From: Candidatus Puniceispirillum sp.
GTDB lineage: Bacteria; Pseudomonadota; Alphaproteobacteria; Puniceispirillales; Puniceispirillaceae
Assembly (NCBI GenBank): GCA_028382965.1
Contig: JAOEUK010000005.1
Location: forward strand, 89,971-153,970
Direction of reading: 5' to 3'
Length of the DNA: 64,000 nt
The stretch's first letter is position 1. Each line of letters opens with the position of its first letter. The position numbers were made by a program, and so were the translations under genes. The notes under the pieces are model-generated. The model did not search any database, was not told where the DNA came from, and saw only the letters and a program-made list of their open reading frames with translations. Of the stretch, positions 11,735-17,725 are shown piece after piece.

Positions 11735-12691
11735 ATGAAGAAACAAATCCTAAAAATCTTTCAGTCGCCAGAAGGTGACCGCCCACTCAGCGCCATGGCG
11801 CTTCTGCTTGTCGGTGTATTCACGCTTGCCCTCCAAGATTCGACAGTGAAATTGATTGCCCCTGAAACATCTTTCTGGCAACTTCAAACCCTTCGTTCAA
11901 TTGGAAATGGTCTATTTATTGCCGCGCTTGCCTCATTCAGCGGTAACTTTAGTATTCTTGTGCCAAGAAATTGGCGACCCGTTTACATCCGTGGAATGAT
12001 GCTAAGCATTTGTATGTTCTGTTTTTTTTCTGCAGCACCTGTGTTATCAGTTGCCCAAATGGCTTCAGGCTTATACACGTATCCATTATTTGTGTCGTTG
12101 CTAGCTATCCCCATACTTGGTGAAAAAGTTGGTCCATGGCGTGTTACCGCTATCATTATTGGCACAATAGGCGCAGCCATTACACTCAACCCTTTTAATG
12201 AAAGCTTTTCATCCACACAACTCCTTCCCATTGCCGCAGGGTTCTTTTACGCCTGCAACCTTATTATTTTACGTCACTCCTGCAGATACGAATCTCCTCT
12301 CGCGCTTGCCATGGCTGTTGCGGTGCTGTTTTTCTGCAGTGGCCTTGCTGGTATCATTTTTCTGACATTATTTTCGGTATCAAACGATGTTGCGGTCACG
12401 CTTCCCTTCATAGCCGTTGGCTGGCCAAAATTAACGATGACAGTGCTTGTCTTTGCGATTTTTTGTTCAATACTGAACCTATTGGGAAATATTTGTCTTT
12501 CTAGGGCCTACCAAACTGCCGACAGCAGCTGGTTGGCGCCGATTGACTTTTCATATCTTCTATTTGCAGCCTTTTGGGGTTGGATAATTTTTAATGCTTG
12601 GCCGCCACAAAATGCCGTTATTGGCATGACTCTGATTGCCATAGCTGGCATGCTGACTGCATGGCGAGAACAACAAAAACAAAAGAGCTGA
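11735..12691 (+). CDS. EamA/DMT family transporter
   Basis: 318 aa, about 10 hydrophobic segments, duplicated EamA pattern (LGEKVGPWRVTAIIIGTIGAAI). Confidence 0.88.
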   Translation: MKKQILKIFQSPEGDRPLSAMALLLVGVFTLALQDSTVKLIAPETSFWQLQTLRSIGNGLFIAALASFSGNFSILVPRNWRPVYIRGMMLSICMFCFFSAAPVLSVAQMASGLYTYPLFVSLLAIPILGEKVGPWRVTAIIIGTIGAAITLNPFNESFSSTQLLPIAAGFFYACNLIILRHSCRYESPLALAMAVAVLFFCSGLAGIIFLTLFSVSNDVAVTLPFIAVGWPKLTMTVLVFAIFCSILNLLGNICLSRAYQTADSSWLAPIDFSYLLFAAFWGWIIFNAWPPQNAVIGMTLIAIAGMLTAWREQQKQKS

Positions 12692-12703
12692 GCTCTATTT
12701 TTT
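12684..12703 (+). terminator. Short rho-independent terminator overlapping the EamA stop codon
   Basis: AGAGC-TGA-GCTCT followed by ATTTTTT; the TGA stop lies in the loop. Confidence 0.5.
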
Positions 12704-12820
12704 CACTGCTAAATTATGCGCTTTGAAAAGTTTTCCATATAGGTCTAAACTAATATCTTCAAACAACGATATTCACCTTTAGTATTAAATATTTAAAAGG
12801 TTAGGGAGGAGATTGTTTTT

Positions 12821-13321
12821 ATGAGTAAAGTTTTAATCAATTTAGTACAAAATTGTCGCCAAATAATCATTGATTGTCCAGGACCAGAGGGTCGAGAAAA
12901 GATTGCTAACTTGCTGACAAACTTGTTGTCTGATCCAACAAATGTTGACACACTTGTTCCCATATCAACCGGCGAGCGTGAATTGCTGTATGAGGACCCT
13001 GATATAGGATTTTGTATTCTTGCGCATAATTACGACGGAGCAAAAACAACACCACCGCATGACCATGGGCCATCATGGGCTATCTATGCTCAAGCACGCG
13101 GCGCGACCATCATGCACGATTATGACAAGATTGAAGATGCCAGTATAGAAAAAATAGGCAAAGTAAGAATTTCACGTACATATAGCCTTACCCCCGGCGT
13201 TGCCCATGTCTACAACGAAGGAGATCTTCATTCACCAACCAGGGATGGGCCAACAAGCCTTATACGCATCGAAGGCACTGATATGAGCAAGGTTAGTCGT
13301 TTCCGCTACGAACTTGCTTAG
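12821..13321 (+). CDS. Cupin-fold protein, cysteine-dioxygenase-like / COG5553-type putative metal enzyme
   Basis: PPHDHGPSWAIYAQARG metal-binding cupin motif plus later His residues; strong SD GGGAGGAG upstream. Confidence 0.75.
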   Translation: MSKVLINLVQNCRQIIIDCPGPEGREKIANLLTNLLSDPTNVDTLVPISTGERELLYEDPDIGFCILAHNYDGAKTTPPHDHGPSWAIYAQARGATIMHDYDKIEDASIEKIGKVRISRTYSLTPGVAHVYNEGDLHSPTRDGPTSLIRIEGTDMSKVSRFRYELA

Positions 13322-13354
13322 CTTGCGTTGCCCTGAAAAACATAGGAAGCAAGA

Positions 13355-14890
13355 ATGAGTTATGGATTATTTACCAAACTTTATGAGGCTGGAGAACCCT
13401 TTACTCTGATTGACAGCCGTGAACGCCGCGATTACGTTTCCGGTCATTGGTTTGGCAGCATAAATATACCGCTATCCTTGTTTTCCACCCGCATCAGCTA
13501 CCTTTTTAAATCCACAGATACTTTGATTAATATTCTTGATTGGGATGATTCTGCCAGTGCCGAGGCAATATATCAACTCAAACTGATCGGTTTTTATAAC
13601 GTCACAATCCATAAGACTAAACGTCCGACAAAGATGGGATGCGGCTTTGTAAAAGGTGAATATGTCTGGTCAAAAGCCTTTGGCGAAGTGGTTGCAAATC
13701 AAATTGATCTTCCCGAGGTCACTCCGCAGCAATACCTGGCTAATTACCAAGATGCGATGCTATTTGATGTTCGCCCAACTGCCGAGTATCAAGACTTCAC
13801 CATACCAACATCTCAAAGTCTCCCAAACAGTCTGCTTTTAGCAAATATTCATGCCCTTAAAGAAACTAAAAGGATGTCCCTATTACATTGTGCAGGACGA
13901 ACACGGTCTATTATAGGCGCCTTTACCCTGATGGCATCCGGCTATGACGGTCAATTCGCTGTTTTTCGTGGTGGAACGCAGGCATGGCAGCTTGATGGAC
14001 ATGACCGCGAACATAACGCAAACCGTTTTTTTGCCACCGATCACGAATCATCCGATGTGGTTACTAGTTTTTTGCACCGTTGGCAAATCACGTCCGAAAG
14101 AGTGCCAGCCAATAAACTGGCCGCCTATACCTCTGCTCATAGCAATGAGCTTATGTTTGATGTATCTGATGATGCAGCAACCGGACAACTCGTAGCGCAT
14201 GGCATAATAAAAATTTCCGGCACCAACTTGATCCAGCAAACAGATTGGTCGATTGCTCTTTTTCATGTGCCAATAACCTTATTTGATCATGGTTCAGGCA
14301 GCAGAGCTGCCTTTGCCGCTTTTTGGCTCCACAGCATGGGTTTTTCGGTCAATTTAGTTTATCTTGATAACCCTGTCGTTGCAATGGATACAAAAAAAAG
14401 AACCCACTTTGGCAACTTGGCACCACCCACCGTCTACCTCGACGCCACTGAACTTAGCAATTGGCAAAACGAGCATAAAAAAATTTATGATTTTCGTTCC
14501 TCCGGCTCCTTCAAAAATGGCTACATTGTCAATAGCCAATGGCATAACATCAGTGCCATCTTAGACGAAACCCCTCATCATATACCGATGGCCATCATCG
14601 CAAACGACATGACAGCAGGTAGGCTTATTGCACATTGCCTGACCCGCCATGGCTGGCAAATTGTAGGTATTTATATATGGAATAGTGGTGATTTTGATCA
14701 ATCAAAATTGGCCACAGGCAGCCCAGAGATGACGCTTGACGAATCTGCTCTTTTTGCTGGACGCCATCGTGGGGTTTTAAAGGATGCCCAAGACTATCTT
14801 GCATGGGAAGAAGACCTACCCCACGAAATTGACAAACTAATTCATGATTTGTGGTGTCAACGGGTCGACAGGGAACCCAAATTGGATTAA
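13355..14890 (+). CDS. Multi-domain rhodanese-like sulfurtransferase (apparently four tandem modules)
   Basis: 511 aa; repeated (F/L)DxR...E(Y/F) module openings; LLHCAGRTRS active-site-like loop in module 2; 33 bp downstream of cupin CDS. Confidence 0.82.
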   Translation: MSYGLFTKLYEAGEPFTLIDSRERRDYVSGHWFGSINIPLSLFSTRISYLFKSTDTLINILDWDDSASAEAIYQLKLIGFYNVTIHKTKRPTKMGCGFVKGEYVWSKAFGEVVANQIDLPEVTPQQYLANYQDAMLFDVRPTAEYQDFTIPTSQSLPNSLLLANIHALKETKRMSLLHCAGRTRSIIGAFTLMASGYDGQFAVFRGGTQAWQLDGHDREHNANRFFATDHESSDVVTSFLHRWQITSERVPANKLAAYTSAHSNELMFDVSDDAATGQLVAHGIIKISGTNLIQQTDWSIALFHVPITLFDHGSGSRAAFAAFWLHSMGFSVNLVYLDNPVVAMDTKKRTHFGNLAPPTVYLDATELSNWQNEHKKIYDFRSSGSFKNGYIVNSQWHNISAILDETPHHIPMAIIANDMTAGRLIAHCLTRHGWQIVGIYIWNSGDFDQSKLATGSPEMTLDESALFAGRHRGVLKDAQDYLAWEEDLPHEIDKLIHDLWCQRVDREPKLD

Positions 14891-15897
14891 TGGGTGCTGT
14901 CTTTATTAAGTTTCATCTGGCGCCAAACAATCACAAGTCCCGCTGCAACAATGGCAAGGACACCGGGAAATAAACGTTCAATTGGTGCTTCAGCAAAAAA
15001 CCACCAGCCAAAAAACAGCGCAAAGGGAATACCAAAATATTCAAATGGGGCCAAAAGGCTAGGCTGTGACATACGATAAGCAACCACAAGACCCAAAACC
15101 CCGATACCACCCAAAAAGCCAAGTAATAAAAACAGTCCGAGATCTAATGCAGATGCTATGGGTGTAGCCTCGCCAAAACATAGCCACAGCAATAAAGAAC
15201 ATCCAGTTGCAAAAATCTGCGATCTGAACTGGATCACACCAGATAGATGATTGGCCGAAAACAGCTTTACAAGCGTGCTTGAAGTTGCATAGCAAAGCGC
15301 GGCCAATACCGGCAAGACCGAAAATAACGAAAAAATACCAGTGCTAGGCTGCATGATCATGACAACTCCACCAAACCCCATCAGCACAGCCGACCACCGC
15401 CAAAACCCAACTCGCGCGCCTAGCAGTGGCACAGACAAGGCTGTCACAAAGAATGGACCAGAAAAAATTAAAGTTCCAACAGTGGCAAATTCTAGCCTAC
15501 TATAAGCCACAAAAAGACACAGCTGCGCAACAGCGACACTGGTACCACGTATTATACAAAGCAGCCATTCTTGCCTCAAAAAAGGCATTTTTAGCGCATT
15601 CATTTTTTGGCTGTAGGCCAAAAGGAATAAGATTGGGAAAAAACCAAAAACATTGCGGGTAAAGGAAATTTGAAATACCGAATAATCTTCGGTCAAAACT
15701 CGAACGACAACTCCCATAAGGGAAAAAGAAAACATAGCTCCAATAATTGTCAAAACAGCCCGTGTCAAAAAATTTCCTTTAGTCGCACATTTCTGTTTGT
15801 TATGATCTGTTTCCTTGACACAGGAGACACCCTTTATCCAAATTAGTCTTGATCCAAACCTATCCCTAGATTTTGTCCGTATCCAATGGATTAACAT
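14887..15897 (-). CDS. EamA/DMT family transporter (true start probably downstream of 15897)
   Basis: About 10 hydrophobic segments, LLGARVGFWRWSAVLMGFGGVVMIM; the annotated N-terminus overlaps the upstream CDS and is not membrane-like. Confidence 0.85.
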   Translation of the reverse strand: MLIHWIRTKSRDRFGSRLIWIKGVSCVKETDHNKQKCATKGNFLTRAVLTIIGAMFSFSLMGVVVRVLTEDYSVFQISFTRNVFGFFPILFLLAYSQKMNALKMPFLRQEWLLCIIRGTSVAVAQLCLFVAYSRLEFATVGTLIFSGPFFVTALSVPLLGARVGFWRWSAVLMGFGGVVMIMQPSTGIFSLFSVLPVLAALCYATSSTLVKLFSANHLSGVIQFRSQIFATGCSLLLWLCFGEATPIASALDLGLFLLLGFLGGIGVLGLVVAYRMSQPSLLAPFEYFGIPFALFFGWWFFAEAPIERLFPGVLAIVAAGLVIVWRQMKLNKDSTH

Positions 15898-16411
15898 TAA
15901 ATGCTTTGATGGTCATAGAAATAAGTGCGTAGTACCCCAGCACACCAACCAAATCGACTGTGCCACCCTCCCCCAAAATCTTTACAGACCGGGCAAAAAG
16001 CTCATCAGACACCCTTCGGGTCGTGTTTAATTCAAGAGCAAATTCATAAACCAACGCCTCATCATCGGCCTTAAAAACTGGCGGCTTGTCTGCGGCCAGC
16101 GCATCAACAATCGCAGGTTCAAGGCCAGCAGCCAATGCAGCTGGCAGATGGGCATCCCATTCAAAAGAAGCGTCCCAAATGCGTGCGGTTGTGAGGATGG
16201 CTAGTTCAGACAGCCGTGGCGGTAAGGACGAATCATATCGGCAATACTGGCCCAAAGCTTGGGCCTTATCAGCAAAATTCGCCCGATAAAGCCATATGGA
16301 AAGTGGCCCACGCACATTTCCACGAGGGCCCGAAGCAATTGCCTGATAAACCTCTTTTTGACGTTGGTCCATCTGGCTTTGGTCAAGCGCAGGCAATCTG
16401 GTCATATTCAT
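15866..16411 (-). CDS. Carboxymuconolactone decarboxylase (CMD) family protein
   Basis: LPPRLSELAILTTARIWDASFEWDAHLPAALAAGL; no CxxC, so not AhpD-type; likely start MNMTRLPALDQ at 16411. Confidence 0.8.
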   Translation of the reverse strand: MNMTRLPALDQSQMDQRQKEVYQAIASGPRGNVRGPLSIWLYRANFADKAQALGQYCRYDSSLPPRLSELAILTTARIWDASFEWDAHLPAALAAGLEPAIVDALAADKPPVFKADDEALVYEFALELNTTRRVSDELFARSVKILGEGGTVDLVGVLGYYALISMTIKAFNVNPLDTDKI

Positions 16412-16621
16412 ACCTTTCTGGAGCACTAGGAGGTCGCAAAAAAAGATTTTTTTACTAATCAGTATAATCACGCAAAATGTTTATTGCCAACGACTTGTTT
16501 TGCATCATGTTATAATCAGTAACACCAAGATTTTCGCAATTATAAGTCACTACTTTCAAAATACTCTCTATAAAATACAGTGTATAATATTTATTGAACT
16601 CAATTCTCAAACGGGATCATC

Positions 16622-17725
16622 ATGTCAAATCAAACTGCAATTCCATTCATTCAAATGCGCGGTGGCAGCTCAAAAGGTATTTACTTCCACGATAGAGATT
16701 TACCCAGCAATTCCAGTCGTCGTAATAGTGTTTTAAAATGGGTTATGGGCGCCTATGGCGACCCACGACAGATTGATGGCATGGGTGGTGCTGACCCACT
16801 CGCCTCAAAAATTGCTATCGTATCCATCTCAAGCCGCGATGATAGCGATGTTGAATATACATTTGTTCAGGCACTCGTTGGAGAGGACCAATTAGATTGC
16901 ACACCAAATTGTGGAAACATTCTATCTGGCATTGGTGCATTTGCTGTTGAAACGGGTCTTGTTGAGCCAAAAGGCGAAGAGGCCAGTATCCGTGTTTACA
17001 TGACCAATAGCGGCAACCGTTGCATGCTACAATTTCCATTAGAAAATGGGTTACCTGTTTATCATGGTGATGCCCGCATTGATGGCGTTTTAGGCACATC
17101 AGCAGCTGTTATATGCCATTATCAAAATCTTGAGGGATCCGCCTGCGGTAGTCTGTTCCCTACTGGAAATCAGCTGGATGAATTTGACAATATTCAAGTA
17201 ACCTGCATCGATAACGGGATGCCCGTTGTTTGCATGAAGGCTGAAAATTTTGGCCTCAATGGCAGCGAAACACCAGACCAGCTAAATCAAAATGAAGATT
17301 TAAAATCACGGCTAGAGTCAATTCGTTTACAAGCTGGAGTGTTAATGGGGCTTGGCAATGTTTCGAAAAAAGTGGTGCCAAAAATGAGCCTTGTTTCAAA
17401 ATCGCGTTATGGAGGAGCTGTCAACACTCAAACCTTTGTTCCGAAGCATTGTCATAAGGCCATTGGCGTTCTTGGGGCAGTTTCAATTGCCACTGCCGCA
17501 CTGTTTGAAGATAGCGCTATTCATGGCCTTGCAAGGCTACCTCATGGCCAAACAAAAGATATGAATATAGAACATCCATCAGGCAGTTTTGCGTTGCAGA
17601 TTATGCTTGTCGATCACGCTGGACATCCCCAGATCGAACGTGTTGGTTTGCTCCGCACTACTCGAATGCTTTGCAGAGGCGAAGTTTACGTGCCGCAATC
17701 TGTATGGGATGGAAAAACTGATTAA
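16622..17725 (+). CDS. PrpF family isomerase (4-oxalomesaconate tautomerase-like)
   Basis: IPFIQMRGGSSKGIYF, DGMGGADPLASKIAIVS, DCTPNCGNILSGIGAFAVE motifs. Confidence 0.87.
   Translation: MSNQTAIPFIQMRGGSSKGIYFHDRDLPSNSSRRNSVLKWVMGAYGDPRQIDGMGGADPLASKIAIVSISSRDDSDVEYTFVQALVGEDQLDCTPNCGNILSGIGAFAVETGLVEPKGEEASIRVYMTNSGNRCMLQFPLENGLPVYHGDARIDGVLGTSAAVICHYQNLEGSACGSLFPTGNQLDEFDNIQVTCIDNGMPVVCMKAENFGLNGSETPDQLNQNEDLKSRLESIRLQAGVLMGLGNVSKKVVPKMSLVSKSRYGGAVNTQTFVPKHCHKAIGVLGAVSIATAALFEDSAIHGLARLPHGQTKDMNIEHPSGSFALQIMLVDHAGHPQIERVGLLRTTRMLCRGEVYVPQSVWDGKTD

Follow-up and report, generated by a model that had tools for sequence, protein, structure and literature searches.

A divergent thiol-dioxygenase-like cupin and its four-module rhodanese partner in Candidatus Puniceispirillum

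A 64,000-nucleotide stretch of a Candidatus Puniceispirillum sp. contig (hereafter "the window") contains a cupin gene followed by a gene for a large rhodanese-like protein. The locus raises the question of whether the two proteins act together in sulfur metabolism and, if so, in what reaction. The host assembly (2.38 Mb, 39 contigs) is 99.6% complete, and the closest named loci are from SAR116-cluster and Candidatus Puniceispirillum genomes. The pairing of a thiol dioxygenase with a rhodanese has been published already, as 3mdo-tst in Pseudomonas and as msdo-rhodanese in Advenella and Variovorax; the divergent dioxygenase branch appears to be the new part.

The locus and the four-module rhodanese

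The cupin gene lies upstream of the rhodanese gene on the same strand, with 33 bp between the cupin stop codon and the rhodanese start codon (Table 1). The reading frames, strands, and gap given in the first-pass annotation are all recovered by an ORF check, as is the PPHDHGPSW motif in the cupin translation. The terminator-like hairpin after the upstream EamA gene suggests, on sequence grounds, that the cupin-rhodanese pair may form a separate unit. The sigma-70-like match upstream of the cupin is weak and does not exceed shuffle expectation. SAR116 relatives keep the upstream EamA gene next to the cupin, and this holds even for two of them that have lost the rhodanese.

EamA-family transporter genes stand on both sides of the pair, one upstream (Table 1) and one at 14887-15897, in an order conserved in SAR116 relatives. 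Further downstream are genes for a carboxymuconolactone-decarboxylase-family protein (15866-16471) and a 4-oxalomesaconate tautomerase (16622-17725), both retained in SAR116 synteny. An AhpD-like gene also adjoins 3mdo in Advenella (PMC5373536).

Table 1. Features of the cupin-rhodanese locus, in window coordinates
Feature	Position	Strand	Remarks
EamA-family transporter gene, upstream neighbour of cupin	11735..12691	+	putative unit member at most
Terminator-like hairpin, end of upstream EamA gene	12684..12696	+	consensus scan only
Sigma-70-like promoter match upstream of cupin	12723..12751	+	TTGAAA-17-TAAACT; consensus scan only
Shine-Dalgarno-like sequence before cupin	12803-12810		agggagga
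Cupin ORF	12821..13321	+	166 aa; thiol-dioxygenase superfamily, apparently a separate subfamily
Putative Fe ligand H80	13058-13060	+	alignment to Azotobacter 3MDO
Putative Fe ligand H82	13064-13066	+	alignment to Azotobacter 3MDO
Putative Fe ligand H137	13229-13231	+	alignment to Azotobacter 3MDO
Putative carboxylate Arg R160	13298-13300	+	aligns with 3MDO Arg168
Shine-Dalgarno-like sequence before rhodanese	13344-13349		aggaag
Four-module rhodanese ORF	13355..14890	+	511 aa; 1YT8 homologue
Module 1, ~aa 1-92	13355..13630	+	loop LDWDDSASAEA, Cys-free; borders approximate
Module 2, ~aa 120-216	13712..14002	+	loop CAGRTRS (LLHCAGRTRS); borders approximate
Putative catalytic C179 (module 2)	13889-13891	+
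Module 3, ~aa 245-338	14087..14368	+	loop FDHGSGSRAAF, Cys-free; borders approximate
Module 4, ~aa 360-443	14432..14683	+	loop IANDMTAGRL, Cys-free; borders approximate
Conserved C-terminal helical tail, ~aa 460-506	14732..14872	+	Y481-L482-x-W484-E485 motif invariant

The predicted structure of the 511-aa protein (AlphaFold2; pLDDT 86.6, pTM 0.87) reveals four rhodanese modules. In particular, 1YT8, a P. aeruginosa thiosulfate sulfurtransferase, is the sole PDB entry that matches the model globally (Foldseek; TM 0.79/0.77), and a profile of the rhodanese relatives spans 1YT8 end to end (E = 3e-118; 5-496 against 14-522). Pfam detects two rhodanese stretches above noise, and profile searches match rhodanese structures in each of the four quarters. 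The first-pass annotation had likewise read the protein as four modules; four are predicted, rather than fewer than three, and the loop sequence that it quoted for each is present and aligns with rhodanese loops. Its further claim, that only module 2 carries an active-site Cys, also holds: the protein contains four cysteines (residues 96, 179, 428, and 501), of which C179 alone lies in an active-site loop. C179 is the sole invariant Cys in the alignments, being conserved in 96/96 aligned family members (a few entries duplicate a single genome), and cysteines in or near the loops of modules 1, 3, and 4 are not conserved across this alignment.

The same architecture is present in 1YT8, which has four modules and an active Cys in module 2 and is matched over its full length, but which differs in having a Cys of its own close to the loop of module 4 (LTCGSS in the profile alignment); the protein here lacks it. 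From the shared species and annotation we infer that 1YT8 is PA2603 itself. Judged by the alignment, four modules with one putative catalytic Cys is the normal design of this family (PA2603/1YT8 type) and is not peculiar to this locus. PA2603 is called a thiosulfate sulfurtransferase by annotation only, as "probable" (PMC12947264), and a full-text search for 1YT8, released in 2005, returned chance string matches only and no functional paper.

A thiol-dioxygenase fold with an altered outer sphere

The cupin had been placed by the first-pass annotation in the family of cysteine dioxygenase (CDO) and 3-mercaptopropionate dioxygenase (3MDO). The AlphaFold2 model of the cupin (pLDDT 96.4) supports this at the level of the superfamily: the best 50 Foldseek matches are all thiol dioxygenases, with TM to query of 0.60-0.79, in the order 4TLF, 6XB9, 4QMA, and 8VNI, then B. 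subtilis CDO, ADO, plant cysteine oxidases (PCO), and mammalian CDO. By sequence the cupin matches zero Pfam or NCBIfam families at E<=1; the missing match to Pfam CDO_I (PF05995) is a weak test, since genuine partners resembling mercaptosuccinate dioxygenase (MSDO) miss CDO_I too. Its relatives have weak Cupin_2 matches only, in 7/45. The nearest PDB sequence is 8VNI (E = 2.8e-5 by phmmer, 1.7e-6 by profile), a weak match compared with the 7.6e-65 of a true MSDO-like partner.

Alignment to Azotobacter 3MDO places H80, H82, and H137 at the positions of the Fe ligands His90, His92, and His142, and R160 at the position of Arg168, which binds the substrate carboxylate (residue roles from PMC8050391). 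All four residues are invariant in 45/45 cupin sequences, down to 26% identity; the pocket residues are unchanged across these divergent sequences too, and an equivalent of R160 is found in all MSDO- and 3MDO-like proteins aligned. H69 and Q91 are invariant in this cupin clade only. The outer sphere is different. Specifically, Ser155-His157-Tyr159 (SHY) of 3MDO corresponds to L147-R149-E151 of the cupin, a triad found in 41/45 of the sequences, with W/R/T in the remaining four, whereas the SHY His and Tyr are retained in 18/18 MSDO-like and 15/15 3MDO-like proteins of the same alignment. At the column of 3MDO Gln63 the cupin has R53, which is present in 41/45 cupins; 8VNI and 8/18 MSDO-like partners likewise have Arg there, and 3MDO has Gln.

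The cupin thus has a thiol-dioxygenase fold, yet it is neither CDO nor 3MDO proper, since it lacks the SHY motif and Gln63 and stands apart from both; that part of the earlier assignment calls for correction. Taken together, residues and similarity scores make it look like a separate thiol-dioxygenase subfamily, and the branch appears to be undescribed so far, no paper on this cupin subfamily having been found in an incomplete coverage of the literature. Because SHY is common to CDO and 3MDO, its absence means that thiol oxidation by the cupin is not assured. ADO and PCO, which are likewise 3-His cupins without SHY, are still active, so that loss of SHY does not forbid activity (PMC8503633). 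They differ from the cupin in having Asp in place of the SHY His, where the cupin has Arg, and in having proteins as substrates. To our knowledge, neither ADO nor PCO has a rhodanese partner.

One genus of the family (g7; L037-L043) carries remote cupin relatives (~30% identity; PHDHGxSWA; W/R/T for SHY) in genomes that contain no four-module rhodanese. Another thiol-dioxygenase-like cupin, of about 231 aa (L184, G000:C1:361048-361497), is encoded in the host genome; it contains HNHKTW and retains SHY intact, as SLHTY, and no four-module rhodanese is adjacent to it within the surrounding 3.4 kb. Two alphaproteobacterial genomes, G312 and G376 (L135, L138), hold up to six matches to the cupin family, some in tandem.

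Conservation of the pair and its sister pairs

The cupin and the rhodanese are conserved functional partners, as the first-pass annotation had proposed. Both genes are kept in other genomes at 50-78% identity, indicating that the observation is not due to chance. In the family sample (61 genomes), the 18 genomes with a strong cupin homologue are the very ones that have a four-module rhodanese (18/18; Fisher p = 8e-16, which overstates independence since the genomes are related), and the two genes are adjacent on the same strand in 15. The other three, all SAR116 (G017, G018, and G027), have the cupin without a downstream rhodanese, and each has a rhodanese of another branch elsewhere. Among the SAR116 loci of such other-branch copies (L016, L017, and L018), the copy at L017 adjoins a gene for an NMT1/TAXI-type binding protein.

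In the class sample (387 genomes), a four-module rhodanese is present in 55/62 genomes with the cupin versus 32/325 without, and the two genes are mostly non-adjacent in genomes holding both. Adjacency nevertheless extends across several lineages beyond SAR116: Rhizobiaceae MAGs (L053, L055), Granulosicoccaceae (L058, L061, L074), Chromatiales (L097), and Polynucleobacter (L076, L110), MAG names being as deposited and possibly wrong. Few genomes carrying this clade turned up in a phylum-wide cupin search. The cupin is common in Burkholderiales as well, but at most loci there no four-module rhodanese is nearby, and linkage is missing in many alphaproteobacteria too, so the rhodanese is not always adjacent. 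The genes around the cupin in Burkholderiales (histone-deacetylase-like, Bug/TctC, and other clusters) offer no clear clue to a substrate and for the most part look like conserved gene order. Elsewhere, cupin relatives stand beside sulfur genes, namely a TauE/SafE exporter gene together with one for a rhodanese domain (L128), TauE/SafE again (L130), and TauD (L143), and glutathione S-transferase (GST) genes adjoin them at L133 and L139; these neighbours are in line with sulfur metabolism.

A rhodanese tree built on reference columns reveals that the cupin adjoins rhodaneses from three separate branches. In particular, 21 proteins adjoining this cupin form one clade (support 1.0), the Polynucleobacter proteins lie next to MSDO-linked ones in another clade (0.994), and two divergently linked proteins are placed elsewhere. 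For this cupin, two or more separate linkages with a rhodanese look secure; the exact number of events is uncertain because some deeper nodes are weakly supported.

Rhodaneses of other branches are linked to other thiol dioxygenases. At L164 and L168, the rhodanese gene lies directly downstream of an MSDO-like cupin (8VNI, E = 7.6e-65 and 8.9e-39), and at L193 directly after a 3MDO (3USS/4TLF, E = 2e-111); the gene ends of such sister pairs often overlap. At six loci (L159, L160, L161, L170, L176, and L197), MSDO-like cupin and four-module rhodanese form one reading frame; in the L159 fusion, residues 54-245 match 8VNI (1.2e-71) and residues 264-792 match 1YT8 (1e-112). The fusions fall in two clades of the rhodanese tree.

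Two published systems have the same arrangement. In P. protegens, 3mdo and tst form an apparent transcription unit with homologues PA2602 and PA2603 (PMC12947264); in both P. aeruginosa (PA2602-PA2603) and P. protegens CHA0 (c14110-c14100), the thiol dioxygenase lies directly upstream of a 1YT8-type rhodanese, an order also confirmed here at L193. This pair differs from ours in that its dioxygenase is a true 3MDO with Gln63 and SHY and its rhodanese belongs to another branch, identity between branches being 23-27%. In Advenella and Variovorax, msdo is reported to have a rhodanese gene close by (PMC5373536); the clusters of V. paradoxus B4 and A. mimigardefordensis thus have a dioxygenase with a linked rhodanese, as do the MSDO-rhodanese fusions described above. 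MSDO differs in retaining the SHY His and Tyr, the cupin here being far more distant, and the cluster as described there additionally has a cystathionine beta-lyase gene and a LysR gene, unlike the locus here. Within our incomplete literature coverage, nothing else on point was found for rhodanese-thiol dioxygenase fusions or four-rhodanese proteins.

A proposed reaction and its alternatives

Building on the observed folds, conserved metal-site and Arg residues, one-Cys design, and partnership, we propose, with a probability of about 50%, that the two genes form a unit that oxidises a small organic thiol. The cupin would be a mononuclear iron thiol dioxygenase of a new 3-His subfamily, converting a thiol-carboxylate to a sulfinate, which would release sulfite. 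The rhodanese would act as a sulfurtransferase of the 1YT8/PA2603 type, in which C179 of module 2 would cycle through a persulfide and exchange sulfane sulfur with that sulfite, either forming thiosulfate or running in the opposite direction; modules 1, 3, and 4 would serve structure and docking, the first-pass annotation having suggested that they may form a scaffold or substrate-binding array. There are precedents for parts of this scheme: the MSDO product sulfinosuccinate decays to succinate and sulfite, and a role in sulfite detoxification has been proposed for the rhodanese near msdo (PMC5373536). When tst was deleted in P. protegens, 3-mercaptopropionate (3-MPA) showed no significant change (PMC12947264), a result that fits a step downstream of thiol oxidation without proving one. 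The host genome also has other rhodanese genes and molybdopterin-oxidoreductase (sulfite-oxidase-family) genes, whose products could deal with sulfite instead.

A narrower version of this proposal, not mutually exclusive with it, is that the cupin is functionally a mercaptosuccinate dioxygenase, with R160 and R53 holding the two carboxylates of a dicarboxylic thiol. The rank of 8VNI as best PDB sequence match and the occurrence of R53 at the 8VNI Arg position favour it, but R149 and E151 replace the very His and Tyr that all MSDO-like proteins aligned retain, and the R53 column varies among MSDO-like proteins in a weakly aligned region; we consider it possible but doubtful. Less probable still is a persulfide route, in which the rhodanese would use thiosulfate or some other donor to make a low-molecular-weight persulfide (R-SSH) that the cupin would then oxidise to sulfite. 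Natural fusions (5VE3, a persulfide dioxygenase-rhodanese fusion termed PRF, and Blh) do combine a rhodanese with an Fe enzyme that oxidises sulfur, 5VE3 is among the structural matches of the rhodanese model through its rhodanese domain, and the GST genes beside cupin relatives would suit such a route. Known persulfide dioxygenases, however, have a metallo-beta-lactamase fold, whereas the protein here is a cupin, and assignment of the cupin to the persulfide dioxygenases was rejected on fold; 5VE3 and Blh both consist of a dioxygenase of that fold and one rhodanese domain. Moreover, the same rhodanese family partners 3MDO and MSDO, both of which have thiol substrates.

The replacement of the outer-sphere triad in nearly all members could instead mean that catalysis was lost and that the cupin is a metal-binding sensor or regulatory subunit tuning the rhodanese. 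We regard this as quite unlikely, since all 45 divergent sequences share the three His, the carboxylate Arg, and the pocket residues, many cupin relatives occur alone, and ADO and PCO are active without SHY. That the two genes are merely chance neighbours would accord with the missing linkage in many alphaproteobacteria and the majority of Burkholderiales. It is made extremely improbable by the complete co-occurrence across the family, the several separate linkages, the replacement of the rhodanese copy, and the sister-dioxygenase fusions.

Returning to the thiol-oxidising unit, dioxygenases of three subfamilies are recurrently linked, and in some cases fused, to the four-module rhodanese, which indicates a role bound up with thiol dioxygenation; that role thereby becomes testable. 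We tentatively suggest that the subfamily with a Leu-Arg-Glu outer sphere oxidises an unrecognised sulfur metabolite and that 3MDO, MSDO, and this subfamily each recruited the four-module rhodanese independently, as a general partner; the result would be a recurrent thiol-oxidation module with a sulfur-relay step. The locus is of interest for its divergent dioxygenase branch and for the evidence it adds that four-module rhodaneses are recurrent thiol dioxygenase partners; a 3-His thiol-dioxygenase-like clade with Arg and Glu in place of His and Tyr would bear on the function of the SHY motif.
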